IMG/VR virus record: IMGVR_UViG_3300035684_000077
Coordinates: 1 to 41,261 of that record
Origin: a virus
Strand: one strand, 5' to 3'
Length of the DNA stretch: 41,261 bases
Position numbers and translations under genes: made by a program
Notes under the pieces: generated by a model
What the model saw: the letters and a program-made list of their open reading frames with translations, nothing else
Database searches by the model: none
What the model was told of the DNA's origin: nothing
Shown here: in pieces, positions 2,543 through 41,261 of the stretch
Numbering within the stretch: the stretch's first letter is position 1
How the letters are laid out: each line of letters starts with the position of its first letter

Positions 2543-2548
2543 TTCGTA

Positions 2549-2587
2549 GTGGGCCCCGTGGGGATCGAACCCACAACCCGCGGATTA
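2549..2587 (-). other. attL: displaced tRNA 3' end
   Basis: Read on the minus strand this is the 3' part of a tRNA. It has the anticodon-stem 3' strand TCCGC, variable loop GGGTT, a perfect T-arm (GTGGG TTCGATC CCCAC) and acceptor strand GGGGCCC followed by A. No matching 5' half follows at higher coordinates: the bases 5' of TCCGC cannot form an anticodon stem or D-arm. It is therefore a separated tRNA tail, as left when an element inserts into a tRNA gene. It shares AACCCGCGGATTA (2575-2587) and GGGGATCGAACCC (2560-2572) with the copy at 41221-41261 without any insertion or deletion, so the two define the prophage ends. Confidence 0.85.
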
Positions 2588-2701
2588 CAAGTTCCACTCT
2601 TCTCCCCCTTTCGTCACCCACAGTAGTGACGCGGTCGTCGTCCCGCTGCGCCCCCGCCACGCTCGCCCGATGCTCACCGCGACCCGGACGGCGGCCGCGT
2701 G

Positions 2702-2899
2702 ATGGCCACCTTCCGGCCGCACTGGCAGCTCGAGGTGGGCGACAGCTTCATCGCCCTCGGCGGCATCGCCCGCGTCACCCGGCGGGCCCGCTCCGGGACG
2801 TGGGTCGACATCGTGGTGGTTGCCGACGGCGGCGACGTGTGGAGCAAGCGCATGCCGGCGGGCATCCCCGCTGACTGGCCCCGGCTGGCTCGCCGGTGA
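2702..2899 (+). CDS. Small phage protein, first gene of integrase operon
   Basis: 65 residues from ATG 2702; GTG 2699 just before it is an alternative. Mostly beta-like pattern (FRPHWQLEVGDSFIALGGIARV...TWVDIVVV), compatible with a small SH3- or OB-like barrel; no family recognised. Its stop overlaps the next start (2896). The TGA at 2700-2702 overlaps this ATG. In the circular phage genome that TGA would end the repressor frame coming through the attachment site, so this gene may be translationally coupled to the repressor before integration. Confidence 0.7.
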   Translation: MATFRPHWQLEVGDSFIALGGIARVTRRARSGTWVDIVVVADGGDVWSKRMPAGIPADWPRLARR

Positions 2900-3681
2900 G
2901 CGCCGTCGAGGAAGCGGTCCCGGACCGCGACCAGCTGCTCGCCGAGGCGATCCGCGTGCTCACCGCGGCCGCGCGGTTGACCCAGGTCGTCCTCGACCGG
3001 GAGCAGGGGCGACGCGAGCTGCCAGCCGACTGGGCGGAGTTCGTCGCCGAGGCCCTCGCCGGCGCCGCGGCCAACGTCGGCAGCCTGGACGCGGCGCTGG
3101 CCGGCCGGCCCGGGTCCTGGGAGGCCGATCTGGTGCAACGGCTGGTCGCCGGCACCGTCGGGTGGGACGGCGAGTACCTGCTCGAGCACCGCACCGACCC
3201 GGTGCACGTCGTGCTGCGCCCGCTCGAGGCGCTGGTCGACGCCGGCGTCGACGCGGCCTACGACCGGGCGTGGGAGGAGCTCGAGCAGCGCAAGGAGACC
3301 GCCTGGCCGGCCGACGTCGACCACGAGGACCTCACCACCGAGCAGCGCGCCGCGCTCGAGGCGGCCGAGCAGCTGCAGGAGCGGCTGGACCGGATGCGCG
3401 AGGAGGACCTCGACGCCTACGGCACCGCACTCGCCCAGGCCGCGCAGGCCGCGCAGGCCGCCGCAGCCGGCACCGGGCTGCGCGTGCCGGTGTACATCGA
3501 GCTCGAGGGCGGCCTGCGCTCCCCGGACGAAGAGACCGGCGAGGAGGACCCGGTCGCGCTGCGGCTGATCGATCAGGCACTGGCCGCCGTCCCGGTGCCG
3601 GGCGCGGCCGGGCCTGGGCAGGCACCGCAGCCGCCGCTCGAGCGGCTGCAGGCCGGCGACGCCGGCGGTACGGCGTCGTGA
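2896..3681 (+). CDS. Hypothetical phage protein, helical, 261 residues
   Basis: Starts at GTG 2896 inside the stop of the preceding gene and ends over the start of the next (3678), so it belongs to the integrase operon. The sequence is acidic and almost wholly alpha-helical, with an alanine-rich stretch (AQAAQAAQAAAAG) near residue 200 and a short predicted beta segment (VPVYIELEGG) after it. I recognise no domain. Codon use is typical of the prophage, supporting real expression. Confidence 0.75.
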   Translation: MSAVEEAVPDRDQLLAEAIRVLTAAARLTQVVLDREQGRRELPADWAEFVAEALAGAAANVGSLDAALAGRPGSWEADLVQRLVAGTVGWDGEYLLEHRTDPVHVVLRPLEALVDAGVDAAYDRAWEELEQRKETAWPADVDHEDLTTEQRAALEAAEQLQERLDRMREEDLDAYGTALAQAAQAAQAAAAGTGLRVPVYIELEGGLRSPDEETGEEDPVALRLIDQALAAVPVPGAAGPGQAPQPPLERLQAGDAGGTAS

Positions 3682-3956
3682 CCACGAGTTTCGACGCGAC
3701 CCTGGCGGCGATCGACGGGGCCCTGGCCGACGTCGACCTGCCCGACGCCATGCGCTGGTCTCCGACTCCCGCCGACGTCGACGACGCCGGCGTCCCCTAC
3801 CAGGAGGACGAGGACCTCACCTGGACGCCGTGGACACTGCCACCTGCGCCTCCGCCGCACCCGGGCCTGTCCCCGAAGTGCATGAACTTCGAGCACGCTG
3901 CGTGCGCCAGCTGCCGGTTCTGCACCTGCCACGACCAGCAGGGAGAGATCCGGTGA
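3678..3956 (+). CDS. Small protein with C-terminal cysteine cluster
   Basis: 92 residues from GTG 3678, overlapping its neighbours by 4 bases at each end. The last 25 residues contain CMNFEHAACASCRFCTCH, with five cysteines and histidines able to bind zinc. The N-terminal half is acidic and proline-rich. Function unknown. Its place between hypothetical genes and the integrase suggests a role in lysogenic functions. Confidence 0.75.
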   Translation: MTTSFDATLAAIDGALADVDLPDAMRWSPTPADVDDAGVPYQEDEDLTWTPWTLPPAPPPHPGLSPKCMNFEHAACASCRFCTCHDQQGEIR

Positions 3957-4219
3957 GTCCGGTCGTCGACGTCGACGGGCTGACCGCGGTGCCCGACCTA
4001 CGAGCGGCCGCGGGACAGCGGTGGGCGGTGTACCGCGCCGGCGCCCGGGTCGGCGTGCTCGAGCAGCACCGCGAAGGCGGGCTGACGTGGCTGGCCGGAC
4101 GCGTCGTCGACGACGTCACCGGCGACCTGTCCGCCGTGGGCCCGACCGCACTGTCGGTGCTGCGGCGGCTGGCTACCCGCCGTGACCTCGCCGCCGTGGC
4201 GTCGCCCGTCCGGAGGTGA
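3953..4219 (+). CDS. Small hypothetical protein upstream of integrase
   Basis: 88 residues from GTG 3953, preceded by GGGAGAG about 8 bases upstream. Its stop TGA (4217-4219) overlaps the integrase start GTG 4216 in a GTGA arrangement, so the two are probably coupled in translation. The sequence has a short beta-rich core (QRWAVYRAGARVGVLEQ, GLTWLAGRVV) and a helical end. No known domain seen. Confidence 0.72.
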   Translation: MSPVVDVDGLTAVPDLRAAAGQRWAVYRAGARVGVLEQHREGGLTWLAGRVVDDVTGDLSAVGPTALSVLRRLATRRDLAAVASPVRR

Positions 4220-5157
4220 CCGCAGTCTCCGATGGTGGGCGACCCGGTGCTGCGCTGAACGCCGGCCCCTACACCTCCTCCATGGCGACCAACGGCCTGA
4301 CCGACGAGCTGCTCGAGGAGTGGGCGACGTGGATGCGGGCGGCGTCGATGAGCGAGCGCACCATCGGCTCGCGCTGCGGCCTGGTGCGCCTGCTGGCCCG
4401 CACCTGCGCCGTGGACGCCGCCGAGGCCGGCTGGCGCGACGTCGCGGCGTTCCTGGCTCGGCCGATGTCGCCGGGCACCCGGCAGACCTATCACGCCGAC
4501 CTGGTCGCCTGGTTCGGCTGGCTGCAGTCCCAGGAGTACCGGGTCGACGACCCGATGTCGCGGCTGCACAAGCCCAAGGCGGTCAAGCGGCGGCCGCGGC
4601 CGATCACGACCGAGCAGCTGCAGCGGATCCTGGCCACCGTCGTCCGCCGGCGGACACGGGCGATGGTGCTGCTCGCCGCGCTGCAGGGGCTGCGGGCGCA
4701 CGAGGTGGCCAAGTTCCGCGGGGAGGACCTGCAGGGGTCCTGGCTGCACGTCGTGGGCAAGGGCGGCAAGGAGGCCTGGCTGCCGCTGCACCCCGACGTC
4801 GCGGCGATCGCCGTCGACTTCCCGCGGTACGACTGGTGGTTCCCCTCCTACACCCGCCCGGGCAAGCCGGTGACGGCGAAGAGCGTGGTCAAGACGCTGT
4901 CGGACCTGATGGGCCGGGCGCAGGTCAACGGGGTCGGGCACCAGCTGCGGCACTGGTACGGCACTGAAGTGCTGCGCGCCGCCGGCGGGAACGTGCGGGT
5001 CGCCCAGGAGCTGCTCCGGCACGAGTCCCTGGCCACGACCGCGCTGTATACCGAGGTCGACGCCACCGAGCGGCGCGCGGCGATCCTCGGCCTGCCCTCA
5101 CTGCTGCCCGGCCGCTCGGCCGCGGCTGTCGGCCGGCGGCTACGGATTGTGGCCTGA
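4216..5157 (+). CDS. int: Phage tyrosine integrase
   Basis: Compact XerC/D-like tyrosine recombinase, 313 residues from GTG 4216 (coupled start, CCGGAG just upstream). ATG 4282 would give 291 residues but lacks a ribosome site. Counting from that ATG: core-binding domain about 7-90 and catalytic domain from 105, with R138 (QGLRAHE), K160/K163 in the beta hairpin (GKGGKEAW), H220-x-x-R223 (HQLRHWY), H247 (LRHESL) and nucleophile Y256 (ALYTEVD). It has the full catalytic set but no obvious N-terminal arm-binding domain, like several short actinophage integrases. It should join the phage core to the tRNA 3' end. As the last gene of an operon that in the circular genome follows the repressor, its expression is probably tied to the immunity switch. 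Confidence 0.93.
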   Translation: MTAVSDGGRPGAALNAGPYTSSMATNGLTDELLEEWATWMRAASMSERTIGSRCGLVRLLARTCAVDAAEAGWRDVAAFLARPMSPGTRQTYHADLVAWFGWLQSQEYRVDDPMSRLHKPKAVKRRPRPITTEQLQRILATVVRRRTRAMVLLAALQGLRAHEVAKFRGEDLQGSWLHVVGKGGKEAWLPLHPDVAAIAVDFPRYDWWFPSYTRPGKPVTAKSVVKTLSDLMGRAQVNGVGHQLRHWYGTEVLRAAGGNVRVAQELLRHESLATTALYTEVDATERRAAILGLPSLLPGRSAAAVGRRLRIVA

Positions 5158-7205: not shown

Positions 7206-7442
7206 CTAAGCGTCGCCGGCGGCGTCCTCTGCTCGACCGACCAAGTCCCGCACTGTCATGTCGAAGGCCTTCGCGACCGCGGTGAGGTCGACGACGTCGA
7301 ACGGCCTCGTCCCTGCCAGCTTGTACGCCGCCACTGAGGGCACGACACCGATCCGTCGAGCGAACTCCCGACCGCTCCAGCCTCGCTCCTCGCGCAGCCG
7401 GTTGATCTCCGCGGCCAGGGCGGCAGCCAACTTCTCGGACAC
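7206..7442 (-). CDS. Cro/CI-type helix-turn-helix regulator
   Basis: 78 residues from GTG 7442 (MSEKLAAALAAEINRLREERGWSG...). The HTH runs about residues 10-62: helix REFARRIGV, turn, recognition region PSVAAYKLAGTRP, then VVDLTAVAKAFDMTVRDLVG, the standard XRE pattern. The size fits a Cro-like or small accessory repressor. It is transcribed toward the operon 7138-5329, with twin operators between, so it probably regulates that operon and perhaps itself. The main immunity repressor candidate is a different XRE protein at 40953. Confidence 0.8.
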   Translation of the reverse strand: MSEKLAAALAAEINRLREERGWSGREFARRIGVVPSVAAYKLAGTRPFDVVDLTAVAKAFDMTVRDLVGRAEDAAGDA

Positions 7443-7596
7443 GGCCGCAGCGTATCGACCGACATGTAAGACACCCGGATCAGCAGAGCCCGGGAGCTGA
7501 TCCCCGGGACATCGGCACCCCGCAGCACGGCCGCGGACTGGGGGGTCTGGGCGGTCCTGGACTTGAGCCCTCCCCCACCCGGCCGAAGCTCCCTTC

Positions 7597-8217
7597 ATGT
7601 CCGCACTCGAGCAGTCCGCCGGCCCAACCCCGGCCGAGGTGACCGCCGCCTTTCAGCGCGTCAGCGACAGCTTCCGGGGCAAGGCGCCCGAGCTCACCCG
7701 CGACGAGCTCCTCCAGGCCCGCACCGTCCTGGCCAGCGGCACCAAGGCATCGACGGCGTGGTTCAGCCCCGCGCTCGTCACGCGTCAAGTCGTCCGCATC
7801 GACGCCCGGCTGCACGCGCTCGACACCGGCGAGCCCCTCGTCGAACCGACCCTCTCGAGGAGCGAGAACATCAAGGGCACCCTTGCCCTGCTGGGGATGA
7901 TCGGCCTGGTGGTCGCGGTCGTGTGGTGGATCATCGCGGCCGCCACGAGCGAGGACGAGGACGACGGGCCCAGCGACGTCGGCGCCTTCTACGCGTGCCA
8001 GCACTTCGTGGAGCAGGTGCTGAAGGCGCCGTCGACCGCGGACTTCGGCCTCTTCGAGGACTCGCGGGTCGCCCCGGAGGGGGACGACCGGTACACCGTC
8101 CGCGGGCTGGTCGACGCGGAGAACAGCTTCGGCGTCCCACTCCGGTCGACCTACACCTGCGAGGTGAAGTACGCCGGCGGGAGCTGGCTGCCGGTCAGCG
8201 TCCCCACGCTGGACTGA
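7597..8217 (+). CDS. Membrane-anchored protein, possible exclusion factor
   Basis: 206 residues from ATG 7597. The first 90 residues are soluble and helical. One transmembrane helix (about 92-113, LALLGMIGLVVAVVWWIIAAA) is followed by an acidic linker (SEDEDDGPSD) and an about 85-residue beta-rich domain with two cysteines (FYACQHFVEQVLKAPSTADF..., TYTCEVKY), probably outside the membrane. That domain resembles small lipoprotein- or sensor-like domains but I cannot name it. It stands alone with its own terminator, in the region where temperate phages carry lysogen-expressed genes, so superinfection exclusion is a reasonable guess. Confidence 0.75.
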   Translation: MSALEQSAGPTPAEVTAAFQRVSDSFRGKAPELTRDELLQARTVLASGTKASTAWFSPALVTRQVVRIDARLHALDTGEPLVEPTLSRSENIKGTLALLGMIGLVVAVVWWIIAAATSEDEDDGPSDVGAFYACQHFVEQVLKAPSTADFGLFEDSRVAPEGDDRYTVRGLVDAENSFGVPLRSTYTCEVKYAGGSWLPVSVPTLD

Positions 8218-8930: not shown

Positions 8931-9188
8931 GTGGCGACCTACGAGGCGAAAACGGCCCTCCCGTACAAGCACCTGCAGCGGGCGACCGCAGGGCTGCGGG
9001 CCGAGCTCCGCGACCAGCTGCTCGCTGCGGGCGACGGCGGTCTGCTCGACTGGTCGACGTTGCAGGTGACCGGTCCTGAGCGGGTGGTCGACGAGCGTGG
9101 CCATGTCTGGTGGACGTACGAGGCCTCGGTCGAGTCCAGGAGCAGCTGGGGACCGGTCGCGTCACCCGAGTGCGGCAGCATCGGCTGA
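8931..9188 (+). CDS. Small protein adjoining the HEPN-like gene
   Basis: 85 residues from GTG 8931. Its stop (9186-9188) touches the next start (9189), so the two are a pair. The N-terminal half is helical (HLQRATAGLRAELRDQLLAAG); the second half is beta-like (WSTLQVTGPERVVDERGHVWWTYEASVES). No known domain seen. In a two-gene unit with a possible HEPN protein it might be an antitoxin or a sensor; this is inference from position only. Confidence 0.6.
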   Translation: MATYEAKTALPYKHLQRATAGLRAELRDQLLAAGDGGLLDWSTLQVTGPERVVDERGHVWWTYEASVESRSSWGPVASPECGSIG

Positions 9189-9857
9189 GTGACCTCGGAG
9201 CCCTTCGTCCCGGCCGGCCCCTACTGCCGCTACCACGCGGTGGGTCCGCCGTTGACGGGCCCGTCCACTCTGCGCGTCGGGTTCACGCTTCCGGACGGGA
9301 CGCCGGCTCATGTCGCTGAGCTGCGCGGCGCCGATGCTTGGGAGGTGGCCGATCTCCAGAGCGTCCTGGAGGACCTTCGCCGAGTAGTGGCGCTGTGCGA
9401 CCTGTGGGGTCCTGCTGCCCAGCTCGGTCCAGTCGGACAGACCGCGCTGTGGGAGGCCGCATCCGTGACCTATGGCCGGTGCTTCAAGGACGGGAAGTCC
9501 GCGCGCGGCAAGGGCAAGAGGGCGCGAGTGCCGGATGACCTGATCGAGGGCTTGCCCGCTCATCTACGCGAGGAGCACGACGTGACCTTGCGGTCGAGGG
9601 ACAAGCACATCGGTCATCGGGTCGATGCTGGTCTGGAGCCGACTCGAGTGGTCGGATTGCGGCGGCGACCGGAAGGGCCGATCGAACAGATCGCCGTCAG
9701 CCTGGCCCGTGTTGAGCGGGCTGACCTGTCGCGTCTACGCGAGCTCGCCGAGACGCTGGCTGAGGCGCTGTGGCCTGTTGTCGATGCGCGGATGGCGGCG
9801 CTGCGCGAGCGTGTGAATGGCCAGTCGACGGGGGATCGCGGCGTCGGTCCTGGGTAA
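9189..9857 (+). CDS. Possible HEPN-type protein, 222 residues
   Basis: From GTG 9189, directly after the stop of its partner. The N-terminal 45 residues are beta-like. Residues about 50-205 are helical and contain R137-DKHIG-H143. That fits the R-x4-6-H motif of HEPN ribonuclease domains, and occurs as they have it near the start of a helix after an alanine-rich helix pair (TALWEAASVTYGRCF). HEPN proteins are frequent effectors in abortive infection. The match is one motif plus helical context, so it stays tentative; it could also be an unrelated helical phage protein. A terminator follows at 9896. Confidence 0.6.
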   Translation: MTSEPFVPAGPYCRYHAVGPPLTGPSTLRVGFTLPDGTPAHVAELRGADAWEVADLQSVLEDLRRVVALCDLWGPAAQLGPVGQTALWEAASVTYGRCFKDGKSARGKGKRARVPDDLIEGLPAHLREEHDVTLRSRDKHIGHRVDAGLEPTRVVGLRRRPEGPIEQIAVSLARVERADLSRLRELAETLAEALWPVVDARMAALRERVNGQSTGDRGVGPG

Positions 9858-26881: not shown

Positions 26882-27568
26882 TCAGCGGGGCAGCCGGTGG
26901 CGGGCGGCCAGCGCCCGGTGCCGCAGCTGCAGCGCCGAGGCGGCCGCGGCCGCGAGGTCGGTGCCGGGCTGCACGTCGACGACGACCTTGCTGGTGGTCG
27001 CGGTGCGGGGGTCGTAGCCGCGGTGCCGGCGGACGACCTCGGCGACCGACGCGGTCAGCTCGTCGCGCATGCCGGCGTCGGTGCCGGCGTAGGCGGGGTA
27101 GGTGACCAGGGAGACGTCGTAGAGCCGGTCGGCCTTGAGCAGCGTGCGGACCTCCTCGCCGCTGTCGGGGTCCTCGGCCCACTTCTCCTCGGCGACGGTG
27201 AACGCGAACGACATCTGCGTGACGTCGCCGCGGCGCACCCGGCCGGCCCACATGACGGCGTCGGGGTCAGCGGGGTCGAACTCGGCCTCCGGGACCAGGC
27301 CGACGTCGTCGACCGACAGGGTCATCGTGTTGCCGTTGCGGGCGAGCACGATGTTCGGGTCGTGGTTGACCAGGAACGCGGTGGGGTCGGTGAGGACGTC
27401 GGCGAAGAAGCCGGGGTCGATCTCCTCGTAGAAGCCCCACTTCTTCGGGCCGATCCAGGTGCGCTGGTTGAACACCGCGGCGTGGCCGGTGAAGCGCAGG
27501 CCGCCGGTGTTGTCGGTGGCCGCGCGGACCTCGGTGTTCTGCAGCGCGACGGTGCGCAGCTCACGCAT
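26882..27568 (-). CDS. Prohead protease
   Basis: 228 residues from ATG 27568, overlapping the portal end by 8 bases. HK97-type serine protease (U35): H69 in FLVNHDP and S120 in VTQMSFAFTV; the following LYDVSLVTYPAY is a family signature. It cleaves the capsid delta domain during maturation. The C-terminal about 40 residues are helical and probably self-removed. Confidence 0.92.
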   Translation of the reverse strand: MRELRTVALQNTEVRAATDNTGGLRFTGHAAVFNQRTWIGPKKWGFYEEIDPGFFADVLTDPTAFLVNHDPNIVLARNGNTMTLSVDDVGLVPEAEFDPADPDAVMWAGRVRRGDVTQMSFAFTVAEEKWAEDPDSGEEVRTLLKADRLYDVSLVTYPAYAGTDAGMRDELTASVAEVVRRHRGYDPRTATTSKVVVDVQPGTDLAAAAASALQLRHRALAARHRLPR

Positions 27569-28856
27569 CGACGTCCTCCTCGTCAGGGTCGCCGGCGCCC
27601 GCGGACGGGCCGGTCGGCGGGGGATCGGGGTCGGGCGCGCCGAGCTCGCCCATGTTCAGCGGGCGGTAGCGGACGTCGCCGCCGGGCACCGGCGGCTGGT
27701 CCTCCAGCCGGCGGATGTCGTTGGTCGAGTAGGCGCCCAGCTCCCACATGGCCTTGTAGAAGGCGCTGCGCTTCGCGGAGTCACCGCGCAGCAGCCCCTC
27801 GACGGAGAACTGCACGTACTGCGGGGACGGCAGCAGCCGGCTCAGGCGCTGCTCGAAGCGGACCAGCCAGGGGCGGAGGGTGTAGACGACGAAGCCGAGG
27901 GACTGCTCCTCGATGCCGCTGCCCCACGACGTGGACTTCTCGGTGTCCATGAGCATGTGCGGCGGGACGCCGAACATGCGGGCGACCTCGGCGATCTGGA
28001 AGCGCCGGGACTCGATGAACTGCACGTCCTCGGGCGGGAAGCTGATCGACTCGAAGGACACGCCGGCGCCGAGCACCCCGACGTCGTGCGCGGAGTCCGG
28101 GCCCGAGTGCTGCTGCTTCCACCGGGCCTTGATCATGTCGGCCTGGTCAGGGGTGAGCTTCTGCTCGGTCTTGAGGATGCCGGTCATCAGGTTGCCGGAG
28201 CCGAACAGCTTGGCGCCGAAGGCCTCGGCGGCCATGGCCAGGCCGATGCCGTTGCGCGCGAGCCCGACCGGGGACAGCCCGGCGACCCCGTCGTAGCCCA
28301 TGCCGGGCACGTGCAGCACGTCGTCGTCGGTGTAGGGCAGCCACGTCTCGGCGGCCTCGGCCGCGGTGACCGGGGCGCCGCGGCGGTCCTTGCCGTCGAT
28401 CGCGTAGACCTTGGTGCCGTCGGCGGCGCGGCCGGGCTTGACCCGGGACGGCTCGATCGGCCACAGCTCCCGGACGACGCCCAGGCCGTCGGTGACCTTG
28501 CGGTAGTAGGTGTTGCCCCAGGACAGCTGGTGGACCAGCGACAGCTCCATCCACTCGAACGGGGTGAGGTCCGGGTGCGGTGCGGCGATGAGGCGGGGCT
28601 TGGGGCTCATCCGCTGCCGGACGCCGTCCCGGTCGTCGCGGTAGCCGTGCAGCGGCAGGGACCCGACGGTCCCGGACAGCAGCGCGACCGCCCGGTACAC
28701 CGCCGGCATCCCGAACGCGGTCTTCTCCGTCACCTGGACGCCGGAGGCGGACTTCGGGCCGACGAGCAGGTCGACCAGCGTCGTGGACGTCAGCGGCGTC
28801 GCCGGGTTCTCCACACTGGCTCGGGCCTCTCCGCGCAGCGCGGACAGCCACGTCAT
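27561..28856 (-). CDS. Portal protein
   Basis: 431 residues from ATG 28856, which overlaps the stop of the small membrane gene by 4 bases; a longer frame exists but its extension is low-complexity. HK97-type portal with FGMPAVYRAVALLSGTVGSLPL, ELSLVHQLSWGNTYYRKV, and the crown and stem region (SISFPPEDVQFIESRRFQ, AEVARMFGVPPHML, STSWGSGIEEQSLGFV). It forms the dodecameric DNA gate at one capsid vertex. Confidence 0.93.
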   Translation of the reverse strand: MTWLSALRGEARASVENPATPLTSTTLVDLLVGPKSASGVQVTEKTAFGMPAVYRAVALLSGTVGSLPLHGYRDDRDGVRQRMSPKPRLIAAPHPDLTPFEWMELSLVHQLSWGNTYYRKVTDGLGVVRELWPIEPSRVKPGRAADGTKVYAIDGKDRRGAPVTAAEAAETWLPYTDDDVLHVPGMGYDGVAGLSPVGLARNGIGLAMAAEAFGAKLFGSGNLMTGILKTEQKLTPDQADMIKARWKQQHSGPDSAHDVGVLGAGVSFESISFPPEDVQFIESRRFQIAEVARMFGVPPHMLMDTEKSTSWGSGIEEQSLGFVVYTLRPWLVRFEQRLSRLLPSPQYVQFSVEGLLRGDSAKRSAFYKAMWELGAYSTNDIRRLEDQPPVPGGDVRYRPLNMGELGAPDPDPPPTGPSAGAGDPDEEDVDA

Positions 28857-28990
28857 CGGGCTCGCCTCACGGCGGCCGCGAGCTCGGGCACGAACACCAG
28901 CAGCGCGCCGGCGATGACCAGCGCCCACGGTGACCACAGCGCGGCGGCGCCGAGGGCGAGCAGGGCCAGCCCGATCGTCTGTGCGTTCAC
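28853..28990 (-). CDS. 45-residue membrane peptide between terminase and portal
   Basis: From GTG 28990, overlapping both neighbours by 4 bases. Nearly all of it is hydrophobic (IGLALLALGAAALWSPWALVIAGALLVFVPEL), enough for two short or one long membrane helix, ending RRAR. A membrane peptide at this place in a packaging operon is unexpected. It could be a holin-like peptide or help assembly at the membrane. Confidence 0.65.
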   Translation of the reverse strand: MNAQTIGLALLALGAAALWSPWALVIAGALLVFVPELAAAVRRAR

Positions 28991-37811: not shown

Positions 37812-38017
37812 CACAGCGACCCCGCGTACTCGTCCGCGTCGGCCGGCTGCAGGCAGCCCGGGTGCACGCGCCGCCGCCCGACCGCGGTGCGCGCCGCCGG
37901 CCGGTCGCCGTGCCACAGCGGCTGCCCACACCAGGTGCACAGCGACCGCCGGAACTCCCGGCGTGCGCTCCACCAGGCGCGGATCGCCCGCCACCAGCGG
38001 CGCAGGACGGACCTCAT
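37808..38017 (-). CDS. Small basic protein with CxxC-H-C motif
   Basis: 69 residues from ATG 38017, overlapping the ParB-like gene stop by 4. Tryptophan/arginine-rich start (RRWWRAIRAWWSARRE) followed by CTWCGQPLWHG and HPGC. Probably zinc-binding. Confidence 0.68.
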   Translation of the reverse strand: MRSVLRRWWRAIRAWWSARREFRRSLCTWCGQPLWHGDRPAARTAVGRRRVHPGCLQPADADEYAGSLW

Positions 38018-39450
38018 GCCGTCGTCCCATGGCGGTCGACGATGATCTGCTCGATGTCGGACAGCTCGTAGCCCTCCTCGACGAGGAAGCGGAACCACCG
38101 GACGGCATCGCGCCCGCGGTGGTCCTGCCAGCGCCAGGCGTCGCGGGTGATGCGGCCCTCGAGGGCGGCAGCGACGTGGGCGAGCAGCTGCAGGGGCAGT
38201 CGGGCGTCAGGCACTCGGGCGCCGCTGGTGAGCGTGTCCTCCTCGCCGGAGAGTCGCCAGGAGGGCCGGGACAGGCCGAGCTCGGCGGCCGCGTCGTCGA
38301 CGTCCTGGGAGCCGTTGCCACCGAACCAGTCGGCGAGTGCGCTGCGGTCGGTGGCCAGCGTCTCGACGGCGAAGCGCAGCACGCCGGCGGGCGCCTTCCG
38401 CCGGGCCAGCAGCTCGCAGATCCAGGCGCGGCGGGTGCTGTTCGCGGCCGTCATGGCCCGGTTGTTCTCGATGACCTGGCGGCGCTCGGCGCGCTGCCGC
38501 TCGAGCTCCTCGTCGGACATGGCCGCGCCCTTGCCGGGCCAGGAGCGCGCCCAGCGGTAGACGTGCCCGTGGCCGGCCGGGTCGGTGCACACCTCGACGT
38601 GGTGGACGTCGCCGTTCCAGCTGTCCTGCAGCACGACGGCGGCGCCCGGGCAGTCAGCGTGCTGCTCGGCGTCGAGGACCTCGCCGCCCTGGAGCAGATC
38701 GTGCACACGGAGTGCGTCGCCGTACTCGAGCAGCACGGTGCGGCCGGCCCGCTCGAGCTCGGCCTGCCGCTCGGCCAGGCGCTGCGCCGTCGCCCGCTCT
38801 TGCTCGGCGCGGGTGACGGCGTGCGCGAAGCGGCCCGGGCCCTCCCCCGCCGCGGCGACCAGCTCGCCGACGACCTCGGGGGCGTTCGCGTAGTCGGCGA
38901 CGACGGCGACCTGGTCCAGCGTCAGCCCGGCGCCGGTCACCGCGGCGGCCACCGCCGGGGACAGCCGGGCGGCGCCGGCGGCGGTGGCCACCCGACGGCG
39001 GTCCAGCCCGGTGCGGGCGGCGATGCCGTCGACGTCGACGCCGAGGTCGAGCATCATCTGCACGCCGCGGGCCTCCTCCACCGGCGTGAGCCCTTGCCGG
39101 TGCAGGTTCTCGGCGAGCATCGCGCCCACGTGCTCGGCCAGGCCCGCGTCGTCGGCGGCGATGAGGTCCGGGCGGAGGATGCACGGCACCAGCGGCGTGC
39201 CGGCGGCGATCGCGGCCGCGGTGCGGCGGTGCCCGGCGAGCAGCTGGTGGCCGCCGTCGGGCAGCGGCACCACGATCAGCGGCTCGAGCACGCCCTGCGC
39301 GGCGATCGACGCGGTCAGCCCGGTCAGGTCACCGAGGTCGACGTGCAGGTTGCGCGGGTGCACGGACAGCGTCCGGGGGTCTAGCAGGACGACGTCGACC
39401 TCGTGCGGCTCGGTGATCACGGGCACGAGGGTGACGGGCACCGCTGTCAC
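38014..39450 (-). CDS. ParB-like protein
   Basis: 478 residues from GTG 39450. ParB N-terminal domain at about 25-115 with LIVVPLPDGGHQLLAGHRRTAAA and the box II-like AENLHRQGLTPVEEA; then a HTH (VDVDGIAARTGLDRRRVATAA). The long C-terminal part (about 210-470) is helical without known domain. Phage ParB-like proteins may act in plasmid-like partition, in regulation or as nucleases; no ParA gene is in the window, so partition seems unlikely. Confidence 0.85.
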   Translation of the reverse strand: MTAVPVTLVPVITEPHEVDVVLLDPRTLSVHPRNLHVDLGDLTGLTASIAAQGVLEPLIVVPLPDGGHQLLAGHRRTAAAIAAGTPLVPCILRPDLIAADDAGLAEHVGAMLAENLHRQGLTPVEEARGVQMMLDLGVDVDGIAARTGLDRRRVATAAGAARLSPAVAAAVTGAGLTLDQVAVVADYANAPEVVGELVAAAGEGPGRFAHAVTRAEQERATAQRLAERQAELERAGRTVLLEYGDALRVHDLLQGGEVLDAEQHADCPGAAVVLQDSWNGDVHHVEVCTDPAGHGHVYRWARSWPGKGAAMSDEELERQRAERRQVIENNRAMTAANSTRRAWICELLARRKAPAGVLRFAVETLATDRSALADWFGGNGSQDVDDAAAELGLSRPSWRLSGEEDTLTSGARVPDARLPLQLLAHVAAALEGRITRDAWRWQDHRGRDAVRWFRFLVEEGYELSDIEQIIVDRHGTTA

Positions 39451-40018: not shown

Positions 40019-40648
40019 CTACGGGCGGCCCCGGAGGCGGGGCAGCCGCCAACGCCCCCGGGGCCGCGCACCGCCGGCGCCGCGCCCCGCCGAGGACGAC
40101 GGCGGATGGGCGTCGGCGGGCGCCCCTACGGTCGACGCGAGCGGCCCGGTGTTCTCAGCACCAGGAGCTCCGACCGCAGAGGACGACTCATGGACATGCA
40201 CTACGCCGGCGAGCGCTTCCCGCTGCACAGCAGCGTCCAGCTCGCCGACCTCGAAGGTCTCGCTCGACGGCCGAAGCCCCAGGTCGTCACGATCCGCCTG
40301 GAGGGCGTCGACGCCTACGGCCGCTTCCTGCTCGGCGGGAACGTCCCCGTCGCGTTCCTGGGACTCGGCGGCAACGACCTGCCCCAGCCGCGAGAGTCGC
40401 AGATGCAGGTCTTCTGACCGCCCCTCGAGCAACCTGATCGGTGCGAGGACCTCGTCGAGCTCGCGCGCCGAGAGCAGGACGTCGGCGAGGGCCTCACGGG
40501 TGAGCTGGTTGCACCGCTGCTGGTAGTGCTGCCGGTCGACGATCCCGGCCGCAGTGCTCACCGACTCCGCCAGCCGCTGCAGGTGCTCGTGCACCAGCCA
40601 GCGCGACACCGTCGGCGCGCCCGCCGGACGTGTCTCCACCGCGGTCAC
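40019..40648 (-). CDS. Helical phage protein in immunity region (C-terminus uncertain)
   Basis: 209 residues from GTG 40648, overlapping the HTH gene stop by GTGA. The first about 90 residues are a good helical protein (WLVHEHLQRLAESVSTAAGIVDRQ, LTREALADVLLSARELDEVLAPIRLLE). The last 60 are low-complexity and overlap a terminator (40025-40067), and the middle is antisense to the plus-strand gene 40190-40417. The start is well supported; the true length is not. Confidence 0.55.
   Translation of the reverse strand: MTAVETRPAGAPTVSRWLVHEHLQRLAESVSTAAGIVDRQHYQQRCNQLTREALADVLLSARELDEVLAPIRLLEGRSEDLHLRLSRLGQVVAAESQERDGDVPAEQEAAVGVDALQADRDDLGLRPSSETFEVGELDAAVQREALAGVVHVHESSSAVGAPGAENTGPLASTVGAPADAHPPSSSAGRGAGGARPRGRWRLPRLRGRP
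40025..40067 (-). terminator. Terminator of the leftward immunity unit
   Basis: GCGGCCCCGG (40025-40034) and CCGGGGCCGC (40058-40067) form a 10-bp stem with a 23-base loop, at the end of the 40019-40648 frame. Confidence 0.55.
40190..40417 (+). CDS. 75-residue protein, antisense to the neighbour
   Basis: From ATG 40190 with GAGGACG upstream; nearly every third base is G or C, the mark of coding in this genome. Beta-rich: PQVVTIRLEGVDAYGRFLLG, GNVPVAFLGLGG. No family recognised. It lies wholly opposite the 40019-40648 frame. Confidence 0.65.
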   Translation: MDMHYAGERFPLHSSVQLADLEGLARRPKPQVVTIRLEGVDAYGRFLLGGNVPVAFLGLGGNDLPQPRESQMQVF

Positions 40649-40839
40649 GCCGCACCGGCCTCGTCGGCGGTGGCGCGGCGCTCGAGGTCCTCGCGCACCC
40701 GCTCGACCTCGGCCCGGTCGAACAGCAGGGGGCCCTTGTAGCCAGGCACGCGGGTGGCCGGCAGGCGGCCGGTGTCCACCATCCGGTGCACGGTGCGCAC
40801 CGACTTGCCCAGCCGACGCGCCACCTGGACGGTGGTCAT
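40645..40839 (-). CDS. Excisionase-like helix-turn-helix protein
   Basis: 64 residues from ATG 40839 (GGTGA upstream); GTG 40860 would add 7 residues. HTH_17/MerR pattern MTTVQVARRLGKSVRTVHRMVDTG and GRLPATRVPG, followed by LFDRAEVERVREDLE. This is the usual form of phage excisionases and of small Cro-like regulators in actinophages. It diverges from the repressor gene across shared operators. Recombination directionality factor or Cro are both possible. Confidence 0.8.
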   Translation of the reverse strand: MTTVQVARRLGKSVRTVHRMVDTGRLPATRVPGYKGPLLFDRAEVERVREDLERRATADEAGAA

Positions 40840-40862
40840 CGGTTCACCCGTTCTGGTCACAC

Positions 40863-40949
40863 GACCAAGCTAGGTCGGATGTCTGAGAGTGCGCAAGCAG
40901 GCGCGCGGCGCGCCGTTTGCCTAGCTAGGACACATGACCTAGCTTGGTC
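40863..40949. promoter_or_regulatory. Divergent operators between excisionase-like gene and repressor
   Basis: GACCAAGCTAGGTC (40863-40876) and its exact inverse GACCTAGCTTGGTC (40936-40949) flank the intergenic region; CCTAGCTAGG (40919-40928) lies between, and a partial copy GACCAAGCTGG follows inside the repressor gene near 40970. The second site overlaps the repressor's start region, implying autoregulation. Confidence 0.75.
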
Positions 40950-40952
40950 GCC

Positions 40953-41261
40953 GTGGACGTCAAGCAGCGACCAAGCTGGCAGGGGGGCGTCGTCCCCGAA
41001 TGGACGCTCGGCGATCGGCTGCGCAAGGCGCGCCTGCACGCCGGGCTCGAGCAAGCGGAGCTGGCGACCGAGCTCGGCATCGCGCGCAACAGCGTGGCCA
41101 GCTACGAGAACCAGCGGACGGCGCCGCGGCGGCCGGTGCTGCTGGCGTGGGCCATGCGGACCGGGGTGTCCCTCGACTGGTTGGTCGGGGACACCCCGTC
41201 GCGCCCCGATGGTGACGCTGGGTGGGCCTCCAGGGGATCGAACCCTGAACCCGCGGATTAA
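40953..41261 (+). CDS. XRE-type repressor whose end lies in the attachment site
   Basis: 102 residues in the prophage from GTG 40953 (TTG 40944 is an alternative; no ribosome site, perhaps leaderless). HTH at about 20-62: LGDRLRKARLHAGLEQAELATELGIARNSVASYENQ in pieces, then AWAMRTGVSLDWLVG. The last 15 codons are the tRNA-like att sequence (ending GSNPEPAD), and TAA 41259-41261 is created by the junction with bacterial DNA. Joined to the left prophage end through the common core, the frame runs on for 38 codons, to a TGA at 2700-2702 that overlaps the next phage gene, giving about 140 residues ending TRTAAA. This matches repressors that are shortened, and so stabilised, by integration. Confidence 0.85.
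   Translation: MDVKQRPSWQGGVVPEWTLGDRLRKARLHAGLEQAELATELGIARNSVASYENQRTAPRRPVLLAWAMRTGVSLDWLVGDTPSRPDGDAGWASRGSNPEPAD
41221..41261 (-). tRNA. 3' part of a tRNA gene (Lys or Asn) = attR, cut by window end
   Basis: On the minus strand: TTAA of the anticodon loop, TCCGC, variable loop GGGTT, T-arm CAGGG TTCGATC CCCTG, acceptor GAGGCCC, A, CC. T35 and T36 fix the anticodon as NTT, so lysine (TTT/CTT) or asparagine (GTT); the GGGTT variable loop and GGGCC-type acceptor favour lysine. The 5' half is outside the window. The part within the window comes from the phage and would rebuild the tRNA. Confidence 0.75.

Follow-up and report, generated by a model that had tools for sequence, protein, structure and literature searches.

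We propose that the prophage described here carries an integration-dependent immunity switch of a temperate tailed phage, a reading to which we assign a probability of about 0.87. The window, the whole stretch of 41,261 nt that was analysed, is an entire IMG/VR record running from an ATG to the stop codon of the repressor gene, its ends apparently having been trimmed at gene ends. Positions 2588-41260 belong to an actinobacterial tailed-phage prophage, which encodes a portal protein at 27561-28937 (Pfam, 2.9e-93). With less confidence, we lean towards the view that the switch marks a distinct lineage within a single family of actinobacteria, perhaps Geodermatophilaceae. Repressor heads of several unrelated kinds would there be joined to a common hinge encoded by tRNA-Lys and a common degron tail, with a stop codon antisense to the region of the lysine anticodon (tRNA positions 35-37). 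The features of the locus are listed in Table 1.

Table 1. Coordinates of the proposed immunity locus in the window.
Feature	Position	Strand	Basis
rep, prophage form: XRE repressor, 102 residues	40953..41261	+	ORF, HTH_3 and PHROG 2328 matches; stop TAA 41259-41261
Detached 3' part of rep: tail of 38 codons encoding YKFHSSPPFVTHSSDAVVVPLRPRHARPMLTATRTAAA, the first of them completed by core bases, plus TGA 2700-2702	2588..2702	+	Homologous tails unbroken in L008 and L058
Junction, repressor side: phage-borne tRNA-Lys 3' half, antisense to the rep reading	41210..41261	-	Core 41248-41260; host sequence starts with 41261
Other junction: core copy 2575-2587 in a displaced tRNA 3' half that belongs to no intact tRNA	2543..2587	-	Sequence comparison
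Four small genes (2702-2899, 2896-3681, 3678-3956, 3953-4219)	2702..4219	+	Linked by stop-start overlaps (TGATG/GTGA) between the rep tail and int
Tyrosine integrase of the prophage, C terminus RLRIVA	4216..5157	+	Phage_integrase 3e-16
Divergent xis/cro-like HTH_17 gene	40645..40860	-	HTH_17 match
Operator-like palindrome GACCAAGCTAGGTC, at the start of the divergent gene	40863..40876	.	Exact pattern twice in the window, 0 in 100 shuffles
Operator-like palindrome GACCTAGCTTGGTC, over the -10-like TAGCTT, 7 bases before the rep GTG	40936..40949	.	Exact pattern search

The repressor gene at the two prophage ends

The repressor matched HTH_3 (E = 2e-12) and PHROG 2328 "transcriptional repressor" (8e-28). 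GTG at 40953 was taken as its start; TTG at 40944 is also possible. The last base of its TAA is the first host base, and this single base is all of the host sequence on the right side, the 5' half of the tRNA gene lying outside the record. The core AACCCGCGGATTA is common to both ends and is embedded in a 39 nt stretch that is 87% alike between them; the core is followed by C at the left end and by A at the right. When the right 3' half was joined in silico to the 5' half of the host gene of relatives, the product folded as tRNA-Lys(UUU), and by inspection its acceptor stem (GGGCCTC/GAGGCCC) was fully paired. The left 3' half runs on into phage sequence that is not tRNA. The attB site overlaps a host tRNA-Lys gene that is rebuilt on integration, with only its 3' half visible in the window.

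The repressor TAA is the antisense of UUA at tRNA positions 35-37 and is dictated by the lysine anticodon and A37, so that the host should not be able to lose the stop without changing the tRNA. The phage form has C in place of A, giving TAC (Tyr) instead of TAA. Joining the ends at the core, by which the attP of the window was reconstructed, resulted in a frame that reads TAC AAG and stays open for 38 codons up to the TGA, which overlaps the ATG at 2702-2704 as TGATG. The joined viral repressor, VDVKQRP...PAD followed by the tail, has 140 residues and the C-terminal end TRTAAA. Its frame contains the attP core. The sequence-only reading had described an XRE frame that enters a tRNA-like att sequence, is stopped at the junction and, once the ends are joined, continues for 38 codons into the first gene of the integrase operon; all of this was confirmed, including the coordinates of the frame, the core and both stop codons.

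A second tyrosine integrase gene (1063-2436) and another gene (1-603) lie outside the left core, beside the displaced tRNA 3' half. At the corresponding place, the related prophage in genome G404 (contig C54) is flanked by a different integrase and that in genome G335 by ordinary host genes, a pattern that suggests a tRNA-Lys hotspot occupied by tandem elements. The integrase at 1063-2436 was rejected as the prophage's own enzyme on account of its position outside the left core, and because it is the inner integrase that is related to known systems.

Related phages and the lost tail

Six relatives confirm the layout of the switch. L008 and L058 are independent IMG/VR phage contigs with the core unbroken inside the repressor gene, which has 140 codons and ends in PRTAVA in L008, and has 163 codons and ends in LESAAA in L058, both at TGATG. 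A third relative, L007, carries a tail ending in CRTAVA. Bacterial genomes of one order and then of one family were searched, and three of them had close integrases (G335, G240 and G404). In each, the repressor frame closes after ...PAD at a TAA that lies in an intact tRNA-Lys(UUU), and the tail is found detached from it, ending in SLQTAA, RMAAAS and GNRAVA, respectively. Integration yields a shorter repressor through a stop at the junction in these genomes as in the window, and the change from 140 residues in the phage to 102 in the prophage, put forward earlier for the window, is backed by both the unbroken and the truncated genes of the relatives. The repressor heads look like three types on the same tRNA-coded hinge: one in G335, G240 and L058, one in G404, and one in the window and L008.

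Two sequences with the same 17-mer core (L056 and L060) were rejected as relatives, as they are unrelated coding sequence. In the searched stretches of two Mycobacterium sequences with related integrases (L009 and L010), no repressor matching the queries was found. L008 carries a Peptidase_M78 (ImmA/IrrE-like) gene after the integrase gene (8990-9469; Pfam, 3.6e-18), which was not seen at the corresponding place in the window. ImmA-type proteases cleave repressors in other elements, and a second induction route through this protein is therefore possible in L008.

In G335 the phage forms a separate contig of 40,378 bases, and it is found again as IMG/VR 2857790187_000001 with the same length and core end. 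On the repressor side this contig has 127 nt in common with the attR contig, on the other side the same length in common with the attL contig, and its own ends share just CAACCCGCGGATTA; the crossover falls within these 14 bases. Since the assembly breaks coincide with the points where attP parts from attR and attL, attP is probably present in the G335 reads. The breaks probably imply that attL, attR and attP occur together and that spontaneous excision is active; a second tandem copy instead of excision would be a less likely cause. Break points at the att core in L037, L038, L049 and L051 (G335 contigs C20, C17 and C8) reveal the coexisting sites, and breaks of this kind could serve to find active prophages in draft genomes.

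The open frame beyond the core is not telling by itself, because in this GC-rich DNA 77% of the shuffled versions of the window tail also stayed open; the evidence comes from the relatives. An ordinary prophage whose repressor gene abuts attR, with a tail open by chance, would agree with this value and with the lack of purifying selection by codon position in the tail (window versus L008; pN 0.36, pS 0.27). The same lack suits a loose linker with a functional end, and adds no support. Such an accident is, however, already largely contradicted by the unbroken genes of L008 and L058, and the frame, the stop/start overlap and the way the tail ends are retained across seven related phages with apparently three types of repressor. 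We give it hardly any credence. Conservation past the core could also act on the DNA, in integrase binding sites or in the start region of the next gene, with the protein tail as a by-product. The DNA near the 3' end of the tail is indeed alike in several relatives (ACGGCGGTCGCGTGATGG) and could be a translation start region. But tail length varies from 37 to 53 codons with the frame always kept, and the tail scores at the protein level against the repressor family, which makes this explanation very improbable. The prophage form scored 97.8 bits against PHROG 2328, reaching profile position 102 of 128, and the joined form 110.2 bits (1e-31), reaching position 121. With eight shuffled tails the scores were 100.0-104.3 bits, so the tail itself carries some family signal. 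The match covers the HTH and the C-terminal part, and PHROG 2328 is also matched by Phayonce, Brujita and phiGD34-2.

The end of the tail bears on its function. Six of the seven viral tails (window, L008, L058, L007, G335, G240 and G404) end in [AV]A, compared to 15 of 168 TGA-ended frames in the same sequences; due to shared descent the seven count for less than independent cases. This background of about 9% in real frames replaced a shuffle estimate of about 2%. The window tail ends in AAA and most relatives in AVA, versus the classic LAA; G240 ends in AAAS. An ssrA-like C terminus is present on both the viral repressor and the integrase of the window, 5 of 6 integrases end in [AV]A, and the host tmRNA tag ADSNQRDFALAA ends in ALAA. 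It could still be that integration truncates the repressor and that the tail alters oligomerisation or DNA binding, or merely carries translation to the integrase operon, instead of causing degradation. Since the stop overlaps the next start codon in each of the seven phages, coupling might by itself maintain the frame, and some M. abscessus phages of the class have no ssrA-like ends (PMC8092301), as is also the case for G240. On the other hand, [AV]A at the tail ends is about ten times as frequent as in the background and recurs on the integrases, and the two forms of the BPs repressor differ in stability and not in DNA binding (PMC4557955). We regard a tail without a role in degradation as unlikely. 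A switch based on degradation, the mechanism suggested by the sequence-only reading, gains support from the ssrA-like ends and next-gene overlaps that recur in the relatives, and from the advantage of the joined tail over shuffled tails.

Integrase operon, operators and proposed mechanism

The viral form looks like one coupled operon from the repressor to the integrase, which is cut in two by integration. After the TGATG, four GTGA overlaps lead through the four small genes, none of which had a Pfam match, to the integrase gene. Systems of this class are marked by an integrase that lacks an arm-type binding domain and by the absence of a dedicated excisionase. The integrase of the prophage is short, with Pfam matches to the core-binding and catalytic parts only. 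Gene order and the stop/start chain place repressor and integrase in one predicted operon, with the repressor divergent from the cro/xis-like gene. The product of the latter resembles excisionases; genes annotated in this way occur in cluster P and I phages too. The divergent starts lie between two exact copies of GACCNAGCTNGGTC in inverted orientation, and an element similar to the -10-overlapping palindrome precedes the repressor start in most relatives. A strict sigma-70 scan found no promoter, and the promoters of the divergent region are putative. The prophage also encodes a second small XRE-type HTH protein (7206-7598, minus strand) and, close to the repressor end, a ParB-like protein (38014-39450, minus strand; PHROG 6218, 1.6e-69), with similarity at the DNA level to phages of Gordonia, Eyes and Bowser among them.

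The repressor gene of the free phage runs through attP and encodes the 140-residue protein, as read from the joined form and from the relatives with an unbroken gene. The overlapping stop and start codons would couple it via the four small genes to the integrase. The tail probably exposes this repressor to ClpXP-type proteolysis, which would leave the free phage without immunity; the host tmRNA tag and the ends of the integrases favour this step. The integrase recombines the core in the gene with the host tRNA-Lys gene, which is rebuilt. As can be read at the junction, the host A then replaces the C of TAC, giving TAA, and the prophage gene encodes the 102-residue repressor without the tail. 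Integration would also part the integrase operon from the repressor promoter, which ought to make lysogeny harder to reverse. Binding of the short repressor to the pair of inverted operators (40863 and 40936) would silence the divergent early genes and tune the repressor's own promoter. Degradation of the long form and immunity by the short form are carried over from BPs by analogy. If varied repressor heads are indeed combined with a shared hinge and tail, the switch would be a portable module that may supply attP, integrase and immunity parts for actinobacteria with few genetic tools.

Comparison with known systems

Integration-dependent immunity is known from mycobacteriophage clusters G, I, N and P, from M. 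abscessus and Bifidobacterium prophages, and from roughly half of the examined integrase phages of Gordonia, with tRNA-Lys sites among them; it was also proposed in a Streptomyces phage. In the literature we found no report of it for the host family studied here. The earlier claim of a new example therefore stands as an extension of a system worked out in mycobacteriophages to a phage group for which no such report was found, and not as a new class. The tRNA, the repressor and the gene order had also been taken as new. Various tRNAs including tRNA-Lys, unrelated repressors and intervening genes have already been described (PMC5559632, PMC8092301), and the order of divergent xis/cro-like gene, repressor, attP and integrase is the usual one.

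An ssrA-like tag directs the viral repressor of BPs to degradation, the prophage form being stable and active, and the two do not differ in DNA binding (PMC4557955); integration shortens gp33 from 136 to 103 residues (PMC4557955, PMC9262239). By its description gp33 is like the repressor studied here: attP lies in the repressor gene, which is upstream of a tyrosine integrase gene and divergent from a cro-like gene, the stop stems from the host base beside the core, and the lost tail is of similar size (33 residues in BPs, 38 here). BPs uses tRNA-Arg instead of tRNA-Lys, and its integrase gene adjoins the repressor gene, whereas four small genes intervene here.

Mycobacteriophage clusters P and I also use integration-dependent immunity (PMC4557955). 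Phayonce, Fishburne, BigNuz and Brujita share with the window a homologous repressor (PHROG 2328), the integrase (about 43%), an xis-like divergent gene and a repressor tail ending in VA or AA. Identity to the immunity repressors of cluster P is 40-45% for the L008 repressor, and the window integrase is 43-46% identical to the integrases of Brujita and M. abscessus phages. Clusters P and I differ from the window in host, tRNA-derived stretch and operators, and their integrase gene directly follows the repressor gene. In several M. abscessus prophage groups the first bacterial base completes the stop, and in some the repressor and integrase genes are separated by three to five others (PMC8092301). 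Prophages such as phiGD34-2 thus agree with the window in both respects and in the integrase (46% identical), but differ in the host and have only a distantly related repressor. Gordonia cluster CW phages combine integration-dependent immunity with attB in a tRNA-Lys gene, and Gordonia phage GMA5 has an extra gene between repressor and integrase (PMC5559632). By description, cluster CW is like the window in its attachment site and type of immunity; its members are other small phages.
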